This document shows, in pieces, positions 26,263 through 33,567 of a stretch of DNA of 34,582 nt. The DNA lies in the NCBI GenBank assembly GCA_947473475.1, contig CANJBZ010000042.1, positions 1-34,582 of the forward strand. The letters run 5' to 3'. Both the position numbers and the translations under genes were made by a program. The stretch is from Alphaproteobacteria bacterium (GTDB lineage: Bacteria; Pseudomonadota; Alphaproteobacteria; Micropepsales; Micropepsaceae). The notes below the pieces were generated by a model. It saw only the letters and a program-made list of their open reading frames with translations, was not told where the DNA came from and did not search any database. Each line of letters begins with the position of its first letter. Position 1 is the first letter of the stretch.

Positions 26263-27375
26263 GTGAAAGCAGTGGTTGAAAAAGTACCTGCGGCCGTAAA
26301 GCTGGGCCCGAACGAAACCGTTTATCGCGAATTCGACATGCCGGAAATCGACGACGAGTCGGCCATTCTTAAGGTCGAAATCGCCGGCATCTGCGGCAGC
26401 GACGTCAAAAACTACGCCAAAAAGATCGAAAACGTGATCATGGGCCACGAAAATGTGGCCAGCGTCTATAAGGCCGGCAAGAAATGGCTGGCGCGCAAGG
26501 GCGTCAAGGAAGGCGACCGCGTTCTGCTCGAGCACTATCTGCCCGACATGACCTGCGAGTGGTGCCATCAGGGTGAATACCGCCATTGCGAAGCCACCGA
26601 CTGGCACACGAATCCGAACGCCATCCGCTACGGCTACACCTCGGCCGATCTGGCGCCGCACCTTTGGGGCGGTTTCTCGCACTACCTTTTCGCGCCCTGG
26701 AACGCGATCGTGCACAAGATCCCGGACAACGTCAGCTCGGAACTGGCCGGCATCGCTACCCCGCTCGCCAATGGCATCCAGTGGGCGCTGTTCGAGGCGG
26801 ACATCGGCTACGGTTCCACCGTGCTGATCCAGGGCCCCGGCCAGCAGGGCCTCGCCCAGATCGTCGCCTGTAAGCAAGCCGGCGCGGACTGCATCATCAT
26901 CACCGGCACGACCAAGGACACCAAGCGCCTGGAACTCGCCAAGTTGTTGGGCGCCGACTACACGATCGACGTGCAGAAGGAAGACCCGGCAGCGCGCATC
27001 CGCGAGATCGTGCCGCAGGGCGTCGACGTCTCCATCGACTGCACGGCGGGCGCCGGTACGGCGGCCATGCTGCTCGGCATCACCGCGCTCAAGCGCAAAG
27101 CCGGCATCCTGATCATTCAGGGCAATGAAATGCCGACCTTCCCAGACTTCCCGATCTATCGCGTGACCCAGAAGTACGGGCAGCTCAGAAGCGCCCGGGG
27201 GCACTCGTATAAGGCGTGCGAACTGGCGCTGAAGCAGCTCGCTTCGCACCGCTTCCCGCTGGAGAAGGCCCTCACGCACACCTTCGGGCTGAAGGAAGTG
27301 GATTGGGCGCTGAAGACCGTCGCCGGCAAGGGCGCCCCGGACGTGATTCACGTCTCGGTCGATCCCTGGAAGTAA
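26263..27375 (+). CDS. Zinc-type MDR dehydrogenase with altered structural-zinc site
   Basis: The 370-residue medium-chain dehydrogenase/reductase oxidises or reduces alcohol, diol or ketone groups with NAD(P). Catalytic zinc ligands appear as Cys44 (GICGSD) and His62-Glu63 (GHEN). The structural zinc loop reads PDMTCEWCHQGEYRHC, with Asp95 where the first of four Cys normally stands (others Cys98, 101, 109). The nucleotide loop is GPGQQG (191-196), with no acidic residue after the next strand, which may favour NADP. GTG at 26263 keeps the family's MKAVV opening but overlaps the GGAGG site; GTG at 26272 has better spacing, so the start is uncertain. A terminator (27400-27433) closes it before the next MDR gene. 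Confidence 0.85.
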   Translation: MKAVVEKVPAAVKLGPNETVYREFDMPEIDDESAILKVEIAGICGSDVKNYAKKIENVIMGHENVASVYKAGKKWLARKGVKEGDRVLLEHYLPDMTCEWCHQGEYRHCEATDWHTNPNAIRYGYTSADLAPHLWGGFSHYLFAPWNAIVHKIPDNVSSELAGIATPLANGIQWALFEADIGYGSTVLIQGPGQQGLAQIVACKQAGADCIIITGTTKDTKRLELAKLLGADYTIDVQKEDPAARIREIVPQGVDVSIDCTAGAGTAAMLLGITALKRKAGILIIQGNEMPTFPDFPIYRVTQKYGQLRSARGHSYKACELALKQLASHRFPLEKALTHTFGLKEVDWALKTVAGKGAPDVIHVSVDPWK

Positions 27376-27399
27376 GTTCCGCAAGTCTTGCGCATTCAG

Positions 27400-27433
27400 A
27401 ACGGGCGTCCTTAACGGGCGCCCGTTTTGTTTT
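27400..27433 (+). terminator. Rho-independent terminator after the first MDR gene
   Basis: AACGGGCG (27400-27407) pairs with CGCCCGTT (27419-27426) and runs into TTTTGTTTT. It lies 25 bases after the MDR stop. The 149 bases between it and the next MDR start should hold the promoter of the Rieske gene set. Confidence 0.8.
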
Positions 27434-27483
27434 GGCTGCCCTGGAAGGCTTGACCTGGATCAACACGGCCGGACCGTCCGCCG

Positions 27484-27516
27484 CTAGGTTCGCTCCACAA
27501 TGTCTTTGGTCCACAT
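27484..27516 (-). other. Ten-codon ORF with strong ribosome-binding site
   Basis: On the minus strand GGAGGA (27525-27530) sits eight bases before an ATG (27516) followed by nine codons (WTKDIVERT) and a stop. It lies in the promoter gap before the second MDR gene, in the opposite direction. It could be the relic 5' end of a lost gene, a leader peptide or chance. Confidence 0.25.
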
Positions 27517-27582
27517 AGTGTTTATCCTCCGCCCCTTGGCTCGCTGCTTGTCAGGCAAAGGGCCCGCTCCTATACCGATCCT

Positions 27583-28707
27583 ATGAGCGCCAAAACCTCG
27601 CTTGCCGCGGTCATGCTGAGCCCCCGCCAGACGGAGCTGCGTGAACTGCCACTGCCCGAAATACCCACCGATGGCGGCCTGTTGCGCGTGGTCGCAACCG
27701 GCATCTGCGGCAGCGATTGGGGAAAATATCTCAGCTCCCAATTCAGCCCATGCATCCTGGGGCACGAGATCGTCGGCTATGTCGAAAAGCTGGGCGATGT
27801 CGCGCGCGCCCGCTGGGGCATTAGCGAAGGCGACTATGTGGCGCTGGAGGAATATCTCCCTTGCGGCCACTGCGAATACTGCCGCACCGGCGAATACCGC
27901 TCCTGCCTGGAGACAGACCACTTCAATCCGAAGGGCGTGCGCTACGGCTCCACCCCGATCACCGTCGCGCCGTCGCTGTATGGCGGCTACAGCCAGTATC
28001 TCTACATGCACCCGCGCACGGTCGTACACAGACTGCCGTCCAACATCCCCCCGCACATCGCCGCCATGGCGCTGCCCTTAGGGAACGGCTTTCAGTGGGC
28101 GTACATGGACGCCGGCATCGGGCCTGGGCAAACCATCGTCATCATGGGACCGGGGCAGCAGGGTCTCGGCTGCGTCGTCGCCGCGAACGTCGCGGGCGCG
28201 GACAACATCGTTGTGGTCGGGCTTGCGCGCGATGCCAAACGCTTTGAGACCGCGCGGAAGCTCGGCGCCACCCACACCATCGCGGTCGATGAAGACGACG
28301 TGCGGGAACGCGTGAAGGACATCACCGGCGGCCGTATGGCCGATGTCGTCATCGATGTGTCCAGCGCCGGACCGGAAATCCTCAATGGCGGCCTGACGCT
28401 AGTGAAGAAGCGCGGCCAGATGCTGTGCACCGCCTGGAAGAAAACCGCCGTGCCGCTCGATCTCGACCGGCTCATTCGCTTCCAGGCCAGTTTACGCGGC
28501 GTGCGCGGCCATTCGTATGAAGCCGTCGAACTCGCCATCGGCGCGATGAAATCTAAAAAATATCCGTTGGACCTGATCTCAACGCATGTGGTCGGACTGA
28601 AAGATGTCGATCGCGCTTTGAAGATCGTGGGCGGGGAATCGAACGAACCCGCGATCCACATCACAGTTGAACCTTGGAAGCAGGAAGAAGACCATGTTGA
28701 CCGTTGA
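27583..28707 (+). CDS. Zinc-type MDR dehydrogenase, second copy
   Basis: The 374-residue MDR enzyme has catalytic zinc ligands Cys42 (GICGSD) and His61-Glu62 (GHEI). Its structural zinc loop is complete, PCGHCEYCRTGEYRSC with Cys94, 97, 100 and 108. The nucleotide loop GPGQQGLG matches that of the first MDR gene. Shared blocks (RGHSYEAVELA against RGHSYKACELA; LKDVDRALKIV against LKEVDWALKTV) show the two are paralogues. It is the first gene of the Rieske set: its last 14 bases overlap the start of the first oxygenase. A likely job is oxidising a dihydrodiol or alcohol intermediate. No clear ribosome-binding site precedes the ATG. Confidence 0.87.
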   Translation: MSAKTSLAAVMLSPRQTELRELPLPEIPTDGGLLRVVATGICGSDWGKYLSSQFSPCILGHEIVGYVEKLGDVARARWGISEGDYVALEEYLPCGHCEYCRTGEYRSCLETDHFNPKGVRYGSTPITVAPSLYGGYSQYLYMHPRTVVHRLPSNIPPHIAAMALPLGNGFQWAYMDAGIGPGQTIVIMGPGQQGLGCVVAANVAGADNIVVVGLARDAKRFETARKLGATHTIAVDEDDVRERVKDITGGRMADVVIDVSSAGPEILNGGLTLVKKRGQMLCTAWKKTAVPLDLDRLIRFQASLRGVRGHSYEAVELAIGAMKSKKYPLDLISTHVVGLKDVDRALKIVGGESNEPAIHITVEPWKQEEDHVDR

Positions 28708-29962
28708 AGAAAATGAACGCGTAACGCGAGTTGGGCCGAATACCGCCGGTGGCAAATATTTCCGCCGTTTCTGGTGGCCGATGTGCCTTTCCAGCGAATT
28801 GCCGGAGCCGGACGGCTCACCGCTGCGCGTGCGGTTGCTCGGCGAAGATCTGGTTGCCTATCGCGCGACCGACGGAACCGTCGGGCTTGTCGATGCCTAT
28901 TGTCCGCACCGCCGTGCGCCACTGTTCTTCGGCCGCAACGAGGAATGCGGCATCCGCTGCGTCTACCACGGCTGGAAATTCGATAAACACGGCGATTGCG
29001 TGGACATGCCGTCGGAACCCGCCGGCACGACGTTGCAGGCGAAGGTGAAAATCGTCGCTTATCCGACCGTCGAAAAGGGCGGCGTGGTCTGGGCCTATAT
29101 GGGACCGAAGGATCAGCAGCCGGCAGAGCCCGATTATGAATGGACGCGCGCGCCGCAAACGCACCGCTATGTCTCCAAGACGTTCGAGAACTGCAATTAT
29201 CTGCAGTGCATCGAAGGCGGCCTGGACACGGCGCATTCGTCGTTTGCACACAACAACAAGCTGAACGACCGGGCCAATCTGCGCCAGCACGACAAGTCGC
29301 CGAACATCGACGTGGAGCGCACCGACTACGGCTATTGCTATGTCTCCACGCGTCACGTGGACGACGGCAAATATATCCGCGTCTATCACTATGTGATGCC
29401 GGCGCAGCAATTGCGCGCCTCGATCATCGGCTATGAAGGCACGCGCAACAAACCCGCGCGCCTCGACGGGCACATCTGGGTTCCGATCGATGACTACACC
29501 ACGTTCGTTTACAACATCATGTGCGCGCCGCATCCCGAAGACGAGTTGGTTCCGGAAGCGGTGGAGAAGCGCGAAGTGGCGGCCGGGCGCGGCGCGGTGA
29601 ATAATATTCCAGGCACGTTCCGCCTGAAGCGCAACCAGTCAAACGACTACCTGATCGACCGGCAGATGCAGAAGACGCAGAACTACACCGGCATTGTCGG
29701 GGTGAACACGCAGGACTTCGCGCTGCAGGAAGGCATGGGGCCGATCTGCGACCGCTCGAAAGAATTCCTGGGGACCTCCGACAAGGCCATCGTCGCGATG
29801 CGGCGTCTGCTGCTGGACGCGATTGCGCAGAACGAAAAGGACGGCACGCTGCGTGGGCTCGATCCGGACACGTACCGGAAAGTGCGCGCTTACGACCGCG
29901 TCATTCCGGGAAGCGCCAACTGGAAAGACGCCATGGCCAAAGACCTCGTCGCCATATGGTGA
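28694..29962 (+). CDS. Rieske non-haem iron oxygenase alpha subunit, copy 1 (phthalate-dioxygenase-like)
   Basis: The 422-residue protein binds a Rieske cluster through Cys70-x-His72 and Cys89-x2-His92. A mononuclear iron site follows in EGGLDTAHSSFAHN (His181, His186, bridging Asp178). The third iron ligand is probably Asp341 in NTQDFALQEGMGPI. The QD..EGMGPICDRSKEFLGTSD block is typical of the phthalate 4,5-dioxygenase / aryl carboxylate group of single-subunit-type alpha proteins. It should hydroxylate an aromatic acid with electrons from a reductase, which is not encoded here. The ATG at 28694 has AGGAAG upstream and overlaps the MDR gene. Copy 2 follows after a REP-like hairpin. Substrate is inferred from family and neighbours only. 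Confidence 0.9.
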   Translation: MLTVEENERVTRVGPNTAGGKYFRRFWWPMCLSSELPEPDGSPLRVRLLGEDLVAYRATDGTVGLVDAYCPHRRAPLFFGRNEECGIRCVYHGWKFDKHGDCVDMPSEPAGTTLQAKVKIVAYPTVEKGGVVWAYMGPKDQQPAEPDYEWTRAPQTHRYVSKTFENCNYLQCIEGGLDTAHSSFAHNNKLNDRANLRQHDKSPNIDVERTDYGYCYVSTRHVDDGKYIRVYHYVMPAQQLRASIIGYEGTRNKPARLDGHIWVPIDDYTTFVYNIMCAPHPEDELVPEAVEKREVAAGRGAVNNIPGTFRLKRNQSNDYLIDRQMQKTQNYTGIVGVNTQDFALQEGMGPICDRSKEFLGTSDKAIVAMRRLLLDAIAQNEKDGTLRGLDPDTYRKVRAYDRVIPGSANWKDAMAKDLVAIW

Positions 29963-29978
29963 GGATGGCCGGTGGGTT

Positions 29979-30032
29979 CCTCCCCCGTTGTTACGGGGGA
30001 GGGGGACCGCGAAGCGGTGGAGGGGGCGACGC
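29979..30032 (+). repeat. REP-like hairpin that ends in the RBS of the second Rieske gene
   Basis: CCTCCCCCGT (29979-29988) and ACGGGGGAGG (29993-30002) form a perfect 10-bp stem with a four-base loop. A second small palindrome around CCGCGAAGCGG and a GGAGGGGG run (30019-30026) follow. The wording resembles intergenic repeats widespread in alphaproteobacteria. The G-rich end lies six bases before the GTG at 30033, so it doubles as the ribosome-binding site. Confidence 0.65.
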
Positions 30033-31304
30033 GTGCTAACCCCCGAAGAAAATGCCCGCCTTACGCGCGTCGGACCCGGCACGCCCATGGGCGTCTTGAT
30101 GCGGCGCTACTGGCAGCCCGCGTGTTTGTCTTCGGAATTGCCGGAAGCCGACGGAGCGCCCTTGCGGGTGCGTCTTCTGGGCGAAGACCTGATCGCCTTT
30201 CGGGCCACAGACGGGACTGTCGGCTTGGTCGACGCCTATTGCCCGCACCGGCGTGCGCCTCTGTTTTTCGGCCGCAACGAAGAATGCGGTATCCGCTGCG
30301 TCTATCACGGCTGGAAATTCGACCGCCACGGCGATTGCGTCGACATGCCGTCTGAGCCGGCCGGCACGACGCTGCAAGCCAAAGTAAAACTCATCGCCTA
30401 TCCCTGTGTCGAAAAGGGCGGCGTGGTGTGGACCTATATGGGGCCGAAGGATTCGCAACCGCCGGAGCCCGATTACGAATGGACGCGCGCGCCGGAAGGA
30501 CACCGCTTCGTCTCCAAGACGTTTGAGAACTGCAATTTCCTGCAGGCGCTGGAAGGCGGCCTGGACACGGCGCATTCCTCTTTCGCGCATAACAATTTCA
30601 AAAGCGACAAATCCGAGCCGCGCCAGCGCGACCGCTCACCGCGCATCGACGTCGAACGCACCGATTACGGCTACTATTATGTGTCGACCCGCAATATGGG
30701 CGATGGAGGCAATTACGTCCGCGTCTATCAGTACGTGCTGCCGGCACTGCAAATGCGCTCCAATGCCGTGGGCTGGTTTGGCGGCAAGAACGAACGGCCG
30801 CGCATCGATGGCCACATCTGGGCGCCTATCGATGACGAGCGTTGCCACGTTTACAATTTCATGTGCGCCTATGATAAAAGCACTTACTTCGACGACGCCT
30901 GGCTCGAAAAGCGCGAAGCCGGCATGGGACGCGGCCAAGACGATCTGATTCCCGGCACGTTCCGTCTCAAGCGCAATCAGTCGAACGACTACATGGTCGA
31001 CCGCCAGATGCAGAAGACGCAGAACTACACCGGCATCGTCGGTGTCAACACGCAGGACTTCGCGCTTCAGGAAGGCATGGGCCCGATCTGCGACCGCTCG
31101 AAAGAGTTTTTGGGCACCAGCGACAAGGCTGTCGTGGCGATGCGGCGTTTGCTTCTGGAGGCTGTGGCGACCGCCGAAAAAGGCGGAACGCCCCGTGGCG
31201 TTCAGGCGGCGACCTATTGCAATGTCCGCCCGCATGATCGCATCGTGCCATCAGGCGAAGATTGGCGAAAAGCCGTAGAACAAGAACTAATCGCTAAGTG
31301 GTGA
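30033..31304 (+). CDS. Rieske non-haem iron oxygenase alpha subunit, copy 2
   Basis: The start is GTG at 30033 behind GGAGGGGG; the longer frame from 29823 is a shadow of copy 1 and the repeat. The 423-residue protein keeps the Rieske ligands (CPH and CVYH), the iron-site EGGLDTAHSSFAHN and the C-terminal QDFALQEGMGPICDRS block almost unchanged from copy 1. The middle third differs much more, for example DKSTYFDDAWLEKREAGMG against HPEDELVPEAVEKREVAAG. That region shapes the substrate pocket and subunit contacts in the family. The two may take different substrates or form a mixed oligomer. The stop is eight bases before the decarboxylase-like start. Confidence 0.9.
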   Translation: MLTPEENARLTRVGPGTPMGVLMRRYWQPACLSSELPEADGAPLRVRLLGEDLIAFRATDGTVGLVDAYCPHRRAPLFFGRNEECGIRCVYHGWKFDRHGDCVDMPSEPAGTTLQAKVKLIAYPCVEKGGVVWTYMGPKDSQPPEPDYEWTRAPEGHRFVSKTFENCNFLQALEGGLDTAHSSFAHNNFKSDKSEPRQRDRSPRIDVERTDYGYYYVSTRNMGDGGNYVRVYQYVLPALQMRSNAVGWFGGKNERPRIDGHIWAPIDDERCHVYNFMCAYDKSTYFDDAWLEKREAGMGRGQDDLIPGTFRLKRNQSNDYMVDRQMQKTQNYTGIVGVNTQDFALQEGMGPICDRSKEFLGTSDKAVVAMRRLLLEAVATAEKGGTPRGVQAATYCNVRPHDRIVPSGEDWRKAVEQELIAKW

Positions 31305-31312
31305 GGGAAGAC

Positions 31313-32344
31313 GTGGCGCATTTTACGCAGGATTCGAAGAATCCGGGTCGATCGGTATTGGAGCTTTCGGTTGCGCTGTCGGACAATCCGCGCACCCGTC
31401 CCGTGATTGAAGGCCGCGTGGACTTCGAGGGCCTGCGGCTGGTGCCGACCACCGTCCACCCTTCCGAAATGTTTTGGCGGCAACTGCGTTACGGCGATTT
31501 CGACGTATCGGAAATGTCCATGTCGACGCTGACCATTCTGACATCGAAGGGCAACCGCGATTGGGTTGGGTTGCCGATCTATACGATGCGGAAATTCTTC
31601 CACAACGAAATCGTGGTGCGCAAAGATTCCGGCATCAATGTGCCCGCCGATCTGAAGGGCAAGCGCGTCGGCGTGCCGGAATATCAGCAAACCGCCGCCA
31701 TCTGGACGCGCGGTGTGCTGCAGCACGAATTCGGCGTACACGCTCGCGACATGACGTGGTGGATGGAACGCAACGACGACAAGAGCCACGGCCATTCGTC
31801 GGGCTTCAAGGCGCCGGAAGGCGTTTCGATTACGCCGGTGCCGCTGAACACCAATCTCGGCGACATGCTGTTGAAGGGCGAGATCGATGGCATCGTCCAC
31901 TACATCGCCAACAACAATCTGGTGGACCGCAGTCGCGTCGATGTCGCCGCCGATCCCCGCATCAAATATCTGTTCGAGGACCGCGAGGCGGAATCCGCGC
32001 GTTATTTCAAAAAGACCGGCATCTTCCCGATCAACCATTGCATGGTGATTAAGCGCTCCGTGTACGAACAGCATCCCTGGGTGGCGCTGAATTTGTATTC
32101 GGGCTTCCTGGCGGCCATGGAACAGGTTCGGAAAGAGTCGCTGGCGTGGATGGCGCTGTACTATGAAATGGGGCTGGTGGACCGCCCCGTTCGCAACGTG
32201 GTGACCAAAACGCCCATGCCCTATGGCATCAAGGCCGCGCGGCCGGTGCTGGAGAACGTCACGCAATATGTGTACGAGCAAGGCCTGTGTGACCGTCGCG
32301 TTGCCCTTGAGGAAATTTTCGCACCCAACACGTTGGACCTGTGA
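31313..32344 (+). CDS. 4,5-dihydroxyphthalate decarboxylase-like protein
   Basis: The preferred start is GTG at 31313, with GAGGGA four bases upstream; a GTG at 31298 would overlap the previous stop. The 343-residue protein has no signal peptide although its fold is that of periplasmic binding proteins. The opening ELSVALSDNPRTRPVIEGRV and the later EMFWRQLRYGDFDVSEMSMST and LKGKRVGVPEYQQTAAIWTRG are the signature of the Pht5-type 4,5-dihydroxyphthalate decarboxylase family. That enzyme removes CO2 from a dihydroxylated aromatic diacid to give protocatechuate. Placement right after two Rieske oxygenases and an MDR dehydrogenase supports a decarboxylation step. Some family members may bind other compounds. 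The stop overlaps the flavoprotein start by four bases. Confidence 0.78.
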   Translation: MAHFTQDSKNPGRSVLELSVALSDNPRTRPVIEGRVDFEGLRLVPTTVHPSEMFWRQLRYGDFDVSEMSMSTLTILTSKGNRDWVGLPIYTMRKFFHNEIVVRKDSGINVPADLKGKRVGVPEYQQTAAIWTRGVLQHEFGVHARDMTWWMERNDDKSHGHSSGFKAPEGVSITPVPLNTNLGDMLLKGEIDGIVHYIANNNLVDRSRVDVAADPRIKYLFEDREAESARYFKKTGIFPINHCMVIKRSVYEQHPWVALNLYSGFLAAMEQVRKESLAWMALYYEMGLVDRPVRNVVTKTPMPYGIKAARPVLENVTQYVYEQGLCDRRVALEEIFAPNTLDL

Positions 32345-33567
32345 CCGCGGAAGGTCCCCCGCGTACCGTCGCGATTATCGGAGCTGGGCCTGCGGGATTG
32401 ATGGCCGCGGAGATTCTCGGAGCGGCGGGCGTGAAGGTTTCGGTGTGCGACCGCATGCCGACGGCTGGGCGAAAATTCCTGATGGCCGGACGCGGCGGTC
32501 TGAATCTCACGCACTCGGAAGCGTTCGACAGCTTCTTAAAGCGATACGGAGCAGCCTCCGCGCGGTTGCGGCCGATTCTGAAAGCGTTCCCGCCAGCAAA
32601 GACGATTGCGTGGGCGGAAGGTCTGGGACAACCCACCTTCGTGGGCTCCAGCGGGCGCGTGTTTCCCAAAGCGATGAAAGCCTCCCCGCTCCTGCGTGCC
32701 TGGCTGGAACGGTTGCGCGGGTTTGGCGTGCAATTTTATCCGCGCTACGAATGGCGGGGGTGGGACGATGCCGGCGCACTGCTGTTTCGTACCCCCGCCG
32801 GTAATCTCCGTACGCGAGCCGACGCTACGATTTTGGCGCTTGGTGGGGCAAGCTGGCCCAAGCTCGGATCGAATGGCGGCTGGGCGGAGATTCTGGCTCG
32901 CGAACACATAGAGCTAACACCGTTCGCACCGTCCAATTGTGGGTTTACGGTCGCCTGGAGCGAGGTGTTTCGCACCCGCTTTGCCGGACAGCCGCTGAAG
33001 AATGTTGTCCTCAGCTTCGGCAGGCAATCCGCGCGCGGCGACTGCATGATCGCCGGTTACGGCATGGAAGGCGGCGCGATCTACGCGATCTCAGCCGCGT
33101 TGCGTGACGCTGTTGCCCATGCCAAATCGGCCCGGCTGACCGTGGACCTCCGCCCCGACCTCAGCGCAAACCAAATAGCCGAGAAGCTGAAACGCACGCG
33201 CAAAGGTGAGTCACTTGCCAATGTGCTGCGCAAGACCGGGCTGTCGCCGTTGGAAATCAATCTTCTCCGAGAGGCATTCGGCGCCACGCTGAGTAACGAC
33301 GCCGATACTCTCGCAAAACACATAAAGGCGTTACCGCTAAACCTTCTTGCGCCTCAATCTCTGACGCGCGCTATCTCCACCGCAGGCGGCGTGGCATGGT
33401 CCGCGGTCGACAACGATCTGATGCTTCTGAATCGCCCGGGCGTGTTCGTCGCGGGAGAGATGCTCGACTGGGAAGCCCCTACCGGCGGCTACCTCCTGCA
33501 AGCCTGCTTCGCCACCGGCGCCGCCGCTGCCAACGGCGCGCTGCGCCAATTCGGCGCCAGCGTTTAG
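32341..33567 (+). CDS. TIGR03862/HI0933-like flavoprotein (BaiN-type)
   Basis: The 408-residue protein begins with GTG at 32341, overlapping the preceding stop (GTGA). It has the FAD-binding VAIIGAGPAGLMAAEILG (about 9-26) and the family mark GRKFLMAGRGGLNLTHSE near residue 43. A central SGRVFPKAMKASPLLRAW and the C-terminal FVAGEMLDWEAPTGGYLLQACFATG complete the pattern. The group is related to HI0933 and BaiN, flavin enzymes thought to act on double bonds or as NAD(P)H oxidoreductases. Translational coupling to the aromatic genes suggests a reductive or accessory step, though such genes also occur as stand-alone housekeeping genes. Its stop overlaps that of the convergent CMD-like gene. Confidence 0.82.
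   Translation: MTAEGPPRTVAIIGAGPAGLMAAEILGAAGVKVSVCDRMPTAGRKFLMAGRGGLNLTHSEAFDSFLKRYGAASARLRPILKAFPPAKTIAWAEGLGQPTFVGSSGRVFPKAMKASPLLRAWLERLRGFGVQFYPRYEWRGWDDAGALLFRTPAGNLRTRADATILALGGASWPKLGSNGGWAEILAREHIELTPFAPSNCGFTVAWSEVFRTRFAGQPLKNVVLSFGRQSARGDCMIAGYGMEGGAIYAISAALRDAVAHAKSARLTVDLRPDLSANQIAEKLKRTRKGESLANVLRKTGLSPLEINLLREAFGATLSNDADTLAKHIKALPLNLLAPQSLTRAISTAGGVAWSAVDNDLMLLNRPGVFVAGEMLDWEAPTGGYLLQACFATGAAAANGALRQFGASV

Follow-up and report, generated by a model that had tools for sequence, protein, structure and literature searches.

The question raised by the locus considered here is whether a set of genes that joins two Rieske oxygenases (RO1 and RO2) to a decarboxylase-like protein, and that has a zinc-type medium-chain dehydrogenase (MDR) in place of the usual Gfo/Idh enzyme, belongs to the known phthalate routes or represents something of another kind. 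The set lies in a 34,582-nucleotide (nt) stretch of DNA from a freshwater-type alphaproteobacterium of the family Micropepsaceae (contig CANJBZ010000042.1), referred to as the window. Throughout, G000 denotes the source genome and G001, G003 and G006 other genomes compared, G006 being a congener, while C-numbers stand for contigs and L-numbers for the loci compared.

On balance, we favor the view that the genes MDR2-RO1-RO2-DHPDC (27583-32344), DHPDC being the putative decarboxylase, encode a variant of the phthalate 4,5-dioxygenase route. The operon is conserved and probably serves a benzene-dicarboxylate pathway, as a variant of the phthalate route and not a wholly new kind of pathway. The first-pass annotation of this DNA had read the set as performing hydroxylation, dehydrogenation and decarboxylation of a phthalate-like acid, and that reading is supported by the carboxylate-binding triad of both oxygenases and by conserved synteny.

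In the proposed route, RO1 and/or RO2 would dihydroxylate an aromatic acid bearing two adjacent carboxylates, using electrons supplied in trans by a PDR-type reductase. The genome contains one match to such a reductase, with NAD-binding and C-terminal Fer2 domains (G000:C3:110513). MDR2, perhaps together with MDR1, would oxidize the cis-dihydrodiol back to a catechol, thereby replacing the Gfo/Idh enzyme Pht4, and DHPDC would remove one carboxylate to yield protocatechuate or a carboxylated analogue. This product may then enter a protocatechuate 4,5-cleavage set of the LigA/B/C/I/J/K type on contig C16, in which LigA, LigB and LigK are recognized by curated models and LigC-, LigI- and LigJ-like genes are also present. 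What each enzyme does, what the substrate is and which MDR acts are inferred from gene content, synteny, residues, clade placements and the genes present in trans.

Operon Layout and Conservation in the Genus

Open reading frame (ORF) analysis together with Pfam and NCBIfam searches confirmed the six ORFs described earlier, all on the forward strand, with their positions, frames and families: MDR1, MDR2, RO1, RO2, DHPDC and an HI0933-type flavoprotein. The overlaps of 14 and 4 nt and the gap of 8 nt reported between them were confirmed as well. MDR2 (27583..28707; 374 amino acids), assigned by Pfam and by synteny in the genus, is the first gene of the operon and overlaps RO1 by 14 nt. RO1 (28694..29962, with an ATG at 28694) belongs to the phthalate dioxygenase (PDO; LigXa_C) family according to Pfam and to its residue match to PDO, and RO2 (30033..31304), also assigned by Pfam, starts with a GTG at 30033. 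DHPDC (31313..32344), of the Pht5 family (periplasmic-binding-protein-like), could start in frame at 31298 or at a GTG at 31313; the latter is better placed, being preceded by AGGGAAG, and leaves the 8-nt gap after RO2.

The 70-nt spacing between RO1 and RO2 is explained by a repeat of about 50 nt (29977..30028, forward strand), made up of a hairpin plus GGGGGACCGCGAAGCGGTGGAGGGGG, which has more than 40 matches in the genome. Since the repeat is absent from the two closest orthologs, whose RO1-RO2 gap is 1 nt, it has the appearance of a REP-like or mobile repeat that was inserted into the operon recently.

Four further species of the genus (L049, L051, L052 and L053) share the core order MDR2-RO1-(RO)-RO2-DHPDC in synteny, which is therefore far above chance. 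The MDR2 copy is partial in L051, and a third oxygenase is present in the operons of L052 and L053. This was the outcome of the neighborhood search that had been suggested for the MDR-Rieske-Rieske-decarboxylase order, and it upholds the claim of one operon from 27583 as far as MDR2, RO1, RO2 and DHPDC are concerned; the flavoprotein, which is not linked to the pathway, has to be left out.

MDR1 (26263..27375, forward strand; 370 amino acids) had also been counted in the set, and here the evidence points the other way. A terminator-like hairpin of 14 pairs with a T-rich tail (27397..27429) lies 21 nt past its stop codon. In the scan as a whole, terminators were no commoner than in shuffled sequences, and the hairpin behind MDR1 was the longest and best placed. 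A single gene run including MDR1 was discarded for this reason: MDR1 forms its own transcription unit, and the operon proper starts downstream, at MDR2. An MDR1 ortholog precedes MDR2 in L049 (88%) and L053 (79%), where the contig extends far enough.

The Oxygenases

The oxygenase is indeed duplicated, RO1 and RO2 being 72% identical. With LigXa_C scores of 147.6 and 145.3 bits, respectively, both greatly exceed the cut-off of 27, and the Rieske domain is also above its curated cut-off. Their closest solved relatives are isophthalate dioxygenase (IPDO) 9ina, 7fhr and the PDO of Comamonas testosteroni KF1 (7fjl). It has been reported that R207 and R244 of PDO bind the phthalate carboxylates and that S182 and R207 are key to phthalate stabilization, whereas V178 and L198 stand in the isophthalate enzyme where PDO has S182 and R207 (PMC12445078). 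Read at PDO-numbered alignment positions, the triad S182/R207/R244 corresponds to S182, R197 and R229 in RO1 and to S182, R197 and R230 in RO2. Both proteins also keep the equivalents of D178, H181 and H186, that is, the mononuclear iron histidines and the bridging aspartate. The triad is retained in the close clade of RO1 and RO2 and not in the isophthalate-type clade; in the oxygenase paralog on G000:C3 it is lost (A/D/R). Isophthalate was thus rejected as the obvious substrate, as IPDO is devoid of the Ser182 and Arg207 equivalents that RO1 and RO2 retain.

The phylogeny against phthalate and isophthalate oxygenases gave a divided answer: the residues are of PDO type, but membership of the PDO clade is not found. 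RO1 and RO2 fall in a clade of their own (99%) with Hyphomicrobiales metagenome genomes, Peribacillus and an own-genome paralog, outside both the isophthalate-type group and the PDO clade (99%), the latter comprising oxygenases from operons with PDR, Gfo/Idh and Pht5. Because the triad is intact and the clade separate, RO1 and RO2 look built for adjacent carboxylates, yet distinct from PDO proper.

The Dehydrogenases

The contig encodes no Fer2-type or PDR-type reductase and no Gfo/Idh enzyme, so that the linked pair of a complete pht operon is missing. The absence of a reductase from the set and the replacement of Gfo/Idh by a zinc MDR, both stated in the first-pass annotation, are borne out by this result and, for the latter, by the conservation of MDR2 in the operon. 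MDR1 and MDR2 are 43% identical, and both contain ADH_N and ADH_zinc_N domains and keep the Cys and His-Glu of the catalytic zinc site. Ahead of the conserved Pro, MDR1 has Thr and MDR2 has Leu in place of the usual Glu or Cys, and one structural-zinc Cys is missing from MDR1. Neither has an acidic residue ending the second beta strand; a non-acidic end at this position in MDR enzymes may favor NADP.

MDR2-type proteins are rare. In even draws of class and phylum genomes, only one of 385 class genomes besides the own one had a match at E<=1e-90 (42%), and of 398 phylum genomes the own one alone had a match at E<=1e-85. Where they occur, they tend to lie near oxygenases of this type: of 14 plasmid records that matched MDR2, 10 also carry an oxygenase homolog no farther than ~10 kb away. 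The order MDR2-RO-DHPDC recurs in L086 and L092; an oxygenase is followed by an MDR in Caballeronia; in Peribacillus a Pht5-family gene precedes the MDR with an oxygenase of the window clade nearby; and Arthrobacter and Rhodococcus clusters have the order RO-(ABC)-MDR-hyp-PDR. L086 belongs to Roseiarcaceae bacterium H3SJ34-1, the record of which carries no metagenome-assembly mark. The MDR partner can therefore no longer be regarded as peculiar to this genus. The same slot is occupied by an SDR in the Comamonas cluster, where the IPDO is 92% identical, and by Gfo/Idh in pht operons. This slot substitution beside similar oxygenases is the main argument on which the MDR is proposed to be the dihydrodiol dehydrogenase.

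Relatives of MDR1 at 59-62% identity occur in Rhizobium, Sinorhizobium and Phyllobacterium, and a paralog lies at G000:C58. Plasmids of Phyllobacterium, Rhizobium and Sinorhizobium (L198, L199 and L209) share a recurrent cluster in which an MDR1 relative (~61%) accompanies an amidohydrolase, an RraA-type aldolase, a hydrolase, a divergent Pht5-family protein and an isophthalate-type Rieske oxygenase; the annotated clusters also include a linked reductase.

The Putative Decarboxylase and the Opposing Evidence

DHPDC matches the solved 4,5-dihydroxyphthalate decarboxylase 9jp7 with a phmmer E-value of 1e-55 and ~35% identity, and has no apparent signal peptide; on these two grounds a role as a transporter component was rejected. 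E57, R61, D69, E72, R98, H102, E128, Y129, R138 and H247 are common to the DHPDC and Pht5 clades.

Several observations weigh against the phthalate-type route as proposed. In a tree including nine canonical Pht5 proteins, DHPDC falls in another clade, on a long stem and with 100% support, an outcome that the first-pass annotation had named as refuting its reading of the set. Eight of the nine canonical Pht5 sequences (9jp7 included) group together (99%), and the own-genome paralog on G000:C19 falls within this group. R104, R158 and R166 of Pht5 are replaced by F101, M156 and H164 in DHPDC, and by F, M and H in its clade. The genome itself encodes this Pht5-clade protein (G000:C19:36400) as well as a Pht4-like Gfo/Idh enzyme (55%; G000:C3:14928-16076) beside the C3 oxygenase, so that oxidation of the dihydrodiol may fall to an enzyme other than the MDR. 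Outside the genus, neither an MDR nor a Gfo/Idh gene occurs within ~8 kb at nine RO-DHPDC loci, and a literature search found no characterized MDR dihydrodiol dehydrogenase. Nothing useful was found in the literature on the Rieske/alcohol-dehydrogenase/DHP-decarboxylase set or on iphB.

The DHPDC clade comprises dozens of Alpha- and Betaproteobacteria, most of them uncultured, together with a few Chloroflexota. Of 75 loci outside the genus, 11 have a member of it directly behind a window-clade oxygenase; in L057, L064 and L065 such a member directly follows a true PDO, and L057 also has PDR and Gfo/Idh. Given these positions, in which the sister clade takes the place of Pht5 in real PDO operons, the DHPDC clade most likely fills the Pht5 role.

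Other observations concern the wider family. G000 has 13 Pht5-family paralogs (L165-L175) in varied aromatic contexts (gentisate-type, FAH, LigB and xanthine-dehydrogenase-like); most congeners have 6-11 and the other genera of the family almost none, which amounts to an expansion at the genus level. In L096, L104 and L105, relatives of the window-clade decarboxylase are preceded by genes for an intradiol (catechol/hydroxyquinol-type) dioxygenase, an MDR and a binding protein of the NMT1 type.

Alternative Explanations

The alternative that survives best, and that we regard as a tentative possibility, is that the substrate is another ring acid, such as trimellitate, a different benzene polycarboxylate or a diacid derived from lignin, with a shift in the specificity of the decarboxylase clade. 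It overlaps with the phthalate-type route, which is not tied to one exact substrate. The congener G006 carries a separate canonical cluster of PDO, PDR and Gfo/Idh (L192) alongside this operon, which favors the use of something other than unsubstituted phthalate, or else a division of labor. The separation of both the oxygenase clade from PDO and the decarboxylase clade from Pht5 points in the same direction, as does the retention of two or three diverged oxygenases per operon; the intact phthalate-type triad and the sister-clade decarboxylases that accompany true PDOs argue against it.

Along the same lines, the operon might represent a distinct benzene-dicarboxylate branch, with a zinc MDR as cis-dihydrodiol dehydrogenase, a decarboxylase clade outside Pht5, and paired paralogous oxygenases through which uncultured freshwater bacteria broaden or shift the substrate to humic-type polycarboxylates, and we regard this, too, as a tentative possibility. 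If the proposed route is right, MDR enzymes would join the SDR, Gfo/Idh and PdxA types as another way of carrying out the cis-dihydrodiol dehydrogenase step. A testable function would also be available for a large clade of decarboxylases from uncultured freshwater bacteria, now labeled 'ABC transporter substrate-binding protein' or 'Pht5', and lake degraders of phthalates and related acids could be better predicted.

It is rather unlikely that the pathway is of phthalate type but the dihydrodiol is oxidized in trans by the C3 Gfo/Idh enzyme, the MDRs acting on, e.g., a side-chain alcohol or a hydroxymethyl substituent. The existence of that Pht4-like protein and of several RO-DHPDC loci without a linked MDR would fit such an arrangement, and among solved structures MDR2 is closest to threonine/alcohol dehydrogenases. 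However, MDR2 shares the operon with the oxygenases and is conserved together with them, MDRs occupy the dehydrogenase slot beside similar oxygenases elsewhere, and G001 (63% complete) and G003 (88%) keep the operon while their Gfo/Idh relatives reach only 38-40%. Finally, it is very improbable that DHPDC serves as a cytoplasmic sensor or binds a solute and that the oxygenases are O-demethylases or LigX-like monooxygenases, as the weak matches of DHPDC to the NMT1 and Phosphonate-bd solute-binding Pfam models and the naming of the oxygenases' C-terminal Pfam domain after LigXa are outweighed by the strong match to 9jp7, the lack of an apparent signal sequence, the E57/R61/H102/E128/R138/H247 set shared with Pht5 and the PDO-matching residues of the oxygenases.

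The Flavoprotein and Other Features

The TIGR03862/HI0933-type flavoprotein (32341..33567, forward strand; NCBIfam) had been described as translationally coupled to the set. The 4-nt overlap with DHPDC agrees with this, but its distribution does not favor a link with the pathway. It follows DHPDC in the window and in L049 only, and it went undetected in five congeners. Some 20 genomes from other genera, within either the family or the class, encode it, whereas only 1 of 53 genomes from the family's other genera has a DHPDC match. As it is widespread in relatives that have no DHPDC, it was rejected as a pathway gene. Elsewhere in the window, positions 1223-2917 encode a multihaem cytochrome c-like protein with paired CXXCH motifs.

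Comparison with Known Systems

The closest reference is the pht/oph phthalate 4,5-dioxygenase pathway (PDO, PDR, the Gfo/Idh enzyme Pht4 and Pht5), exemplified by the Polaromonas pPNAP04 cluster and by the PDO of Comamonas testosteroni KF1 (7fjl). The window operon resembles it in the Rieske oxygenase family, the phthalate-binding triad, the predicted dehydrogenation and decarboxylation steps and the presence of a Pht5-family protein. It departs from it in that a zinc MDR replaces Gfo/Idh, the reductase is not linked, the oxygenases number two to three, and oxygenase and decarboxylase belong to separate clades.

The isophthalate iphA2-C-B-A1 cluster of Comamonas and the IPDO-like plasmid clusters of Rhodococcus and Arthrobacter employ the same oxygenase superfamily, and the actinobacterial clusters also have a zinc MDR beside the oxygenase. 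On the other hand, these systems have a linked PDR and no annotated decarboxylase of the DHPDC family, Comamonas uses an SDR, and the IPDO-type oxygenases tested are without the S182/R207 pair, unlike RO1 and RO2. A further parallel is the cluster on plasmid pA of Peribacillus sp. R9-11 (L197). Its Pht5-family gene comes from another sub-branch, and its genes are scattered among transporters over 25 kb; like the window operon, it combines two oxygenases, one of them of the window clade, with two MDRs and one Pht5-family gene adjoining an MDR, and has no annotated reductase nearby.

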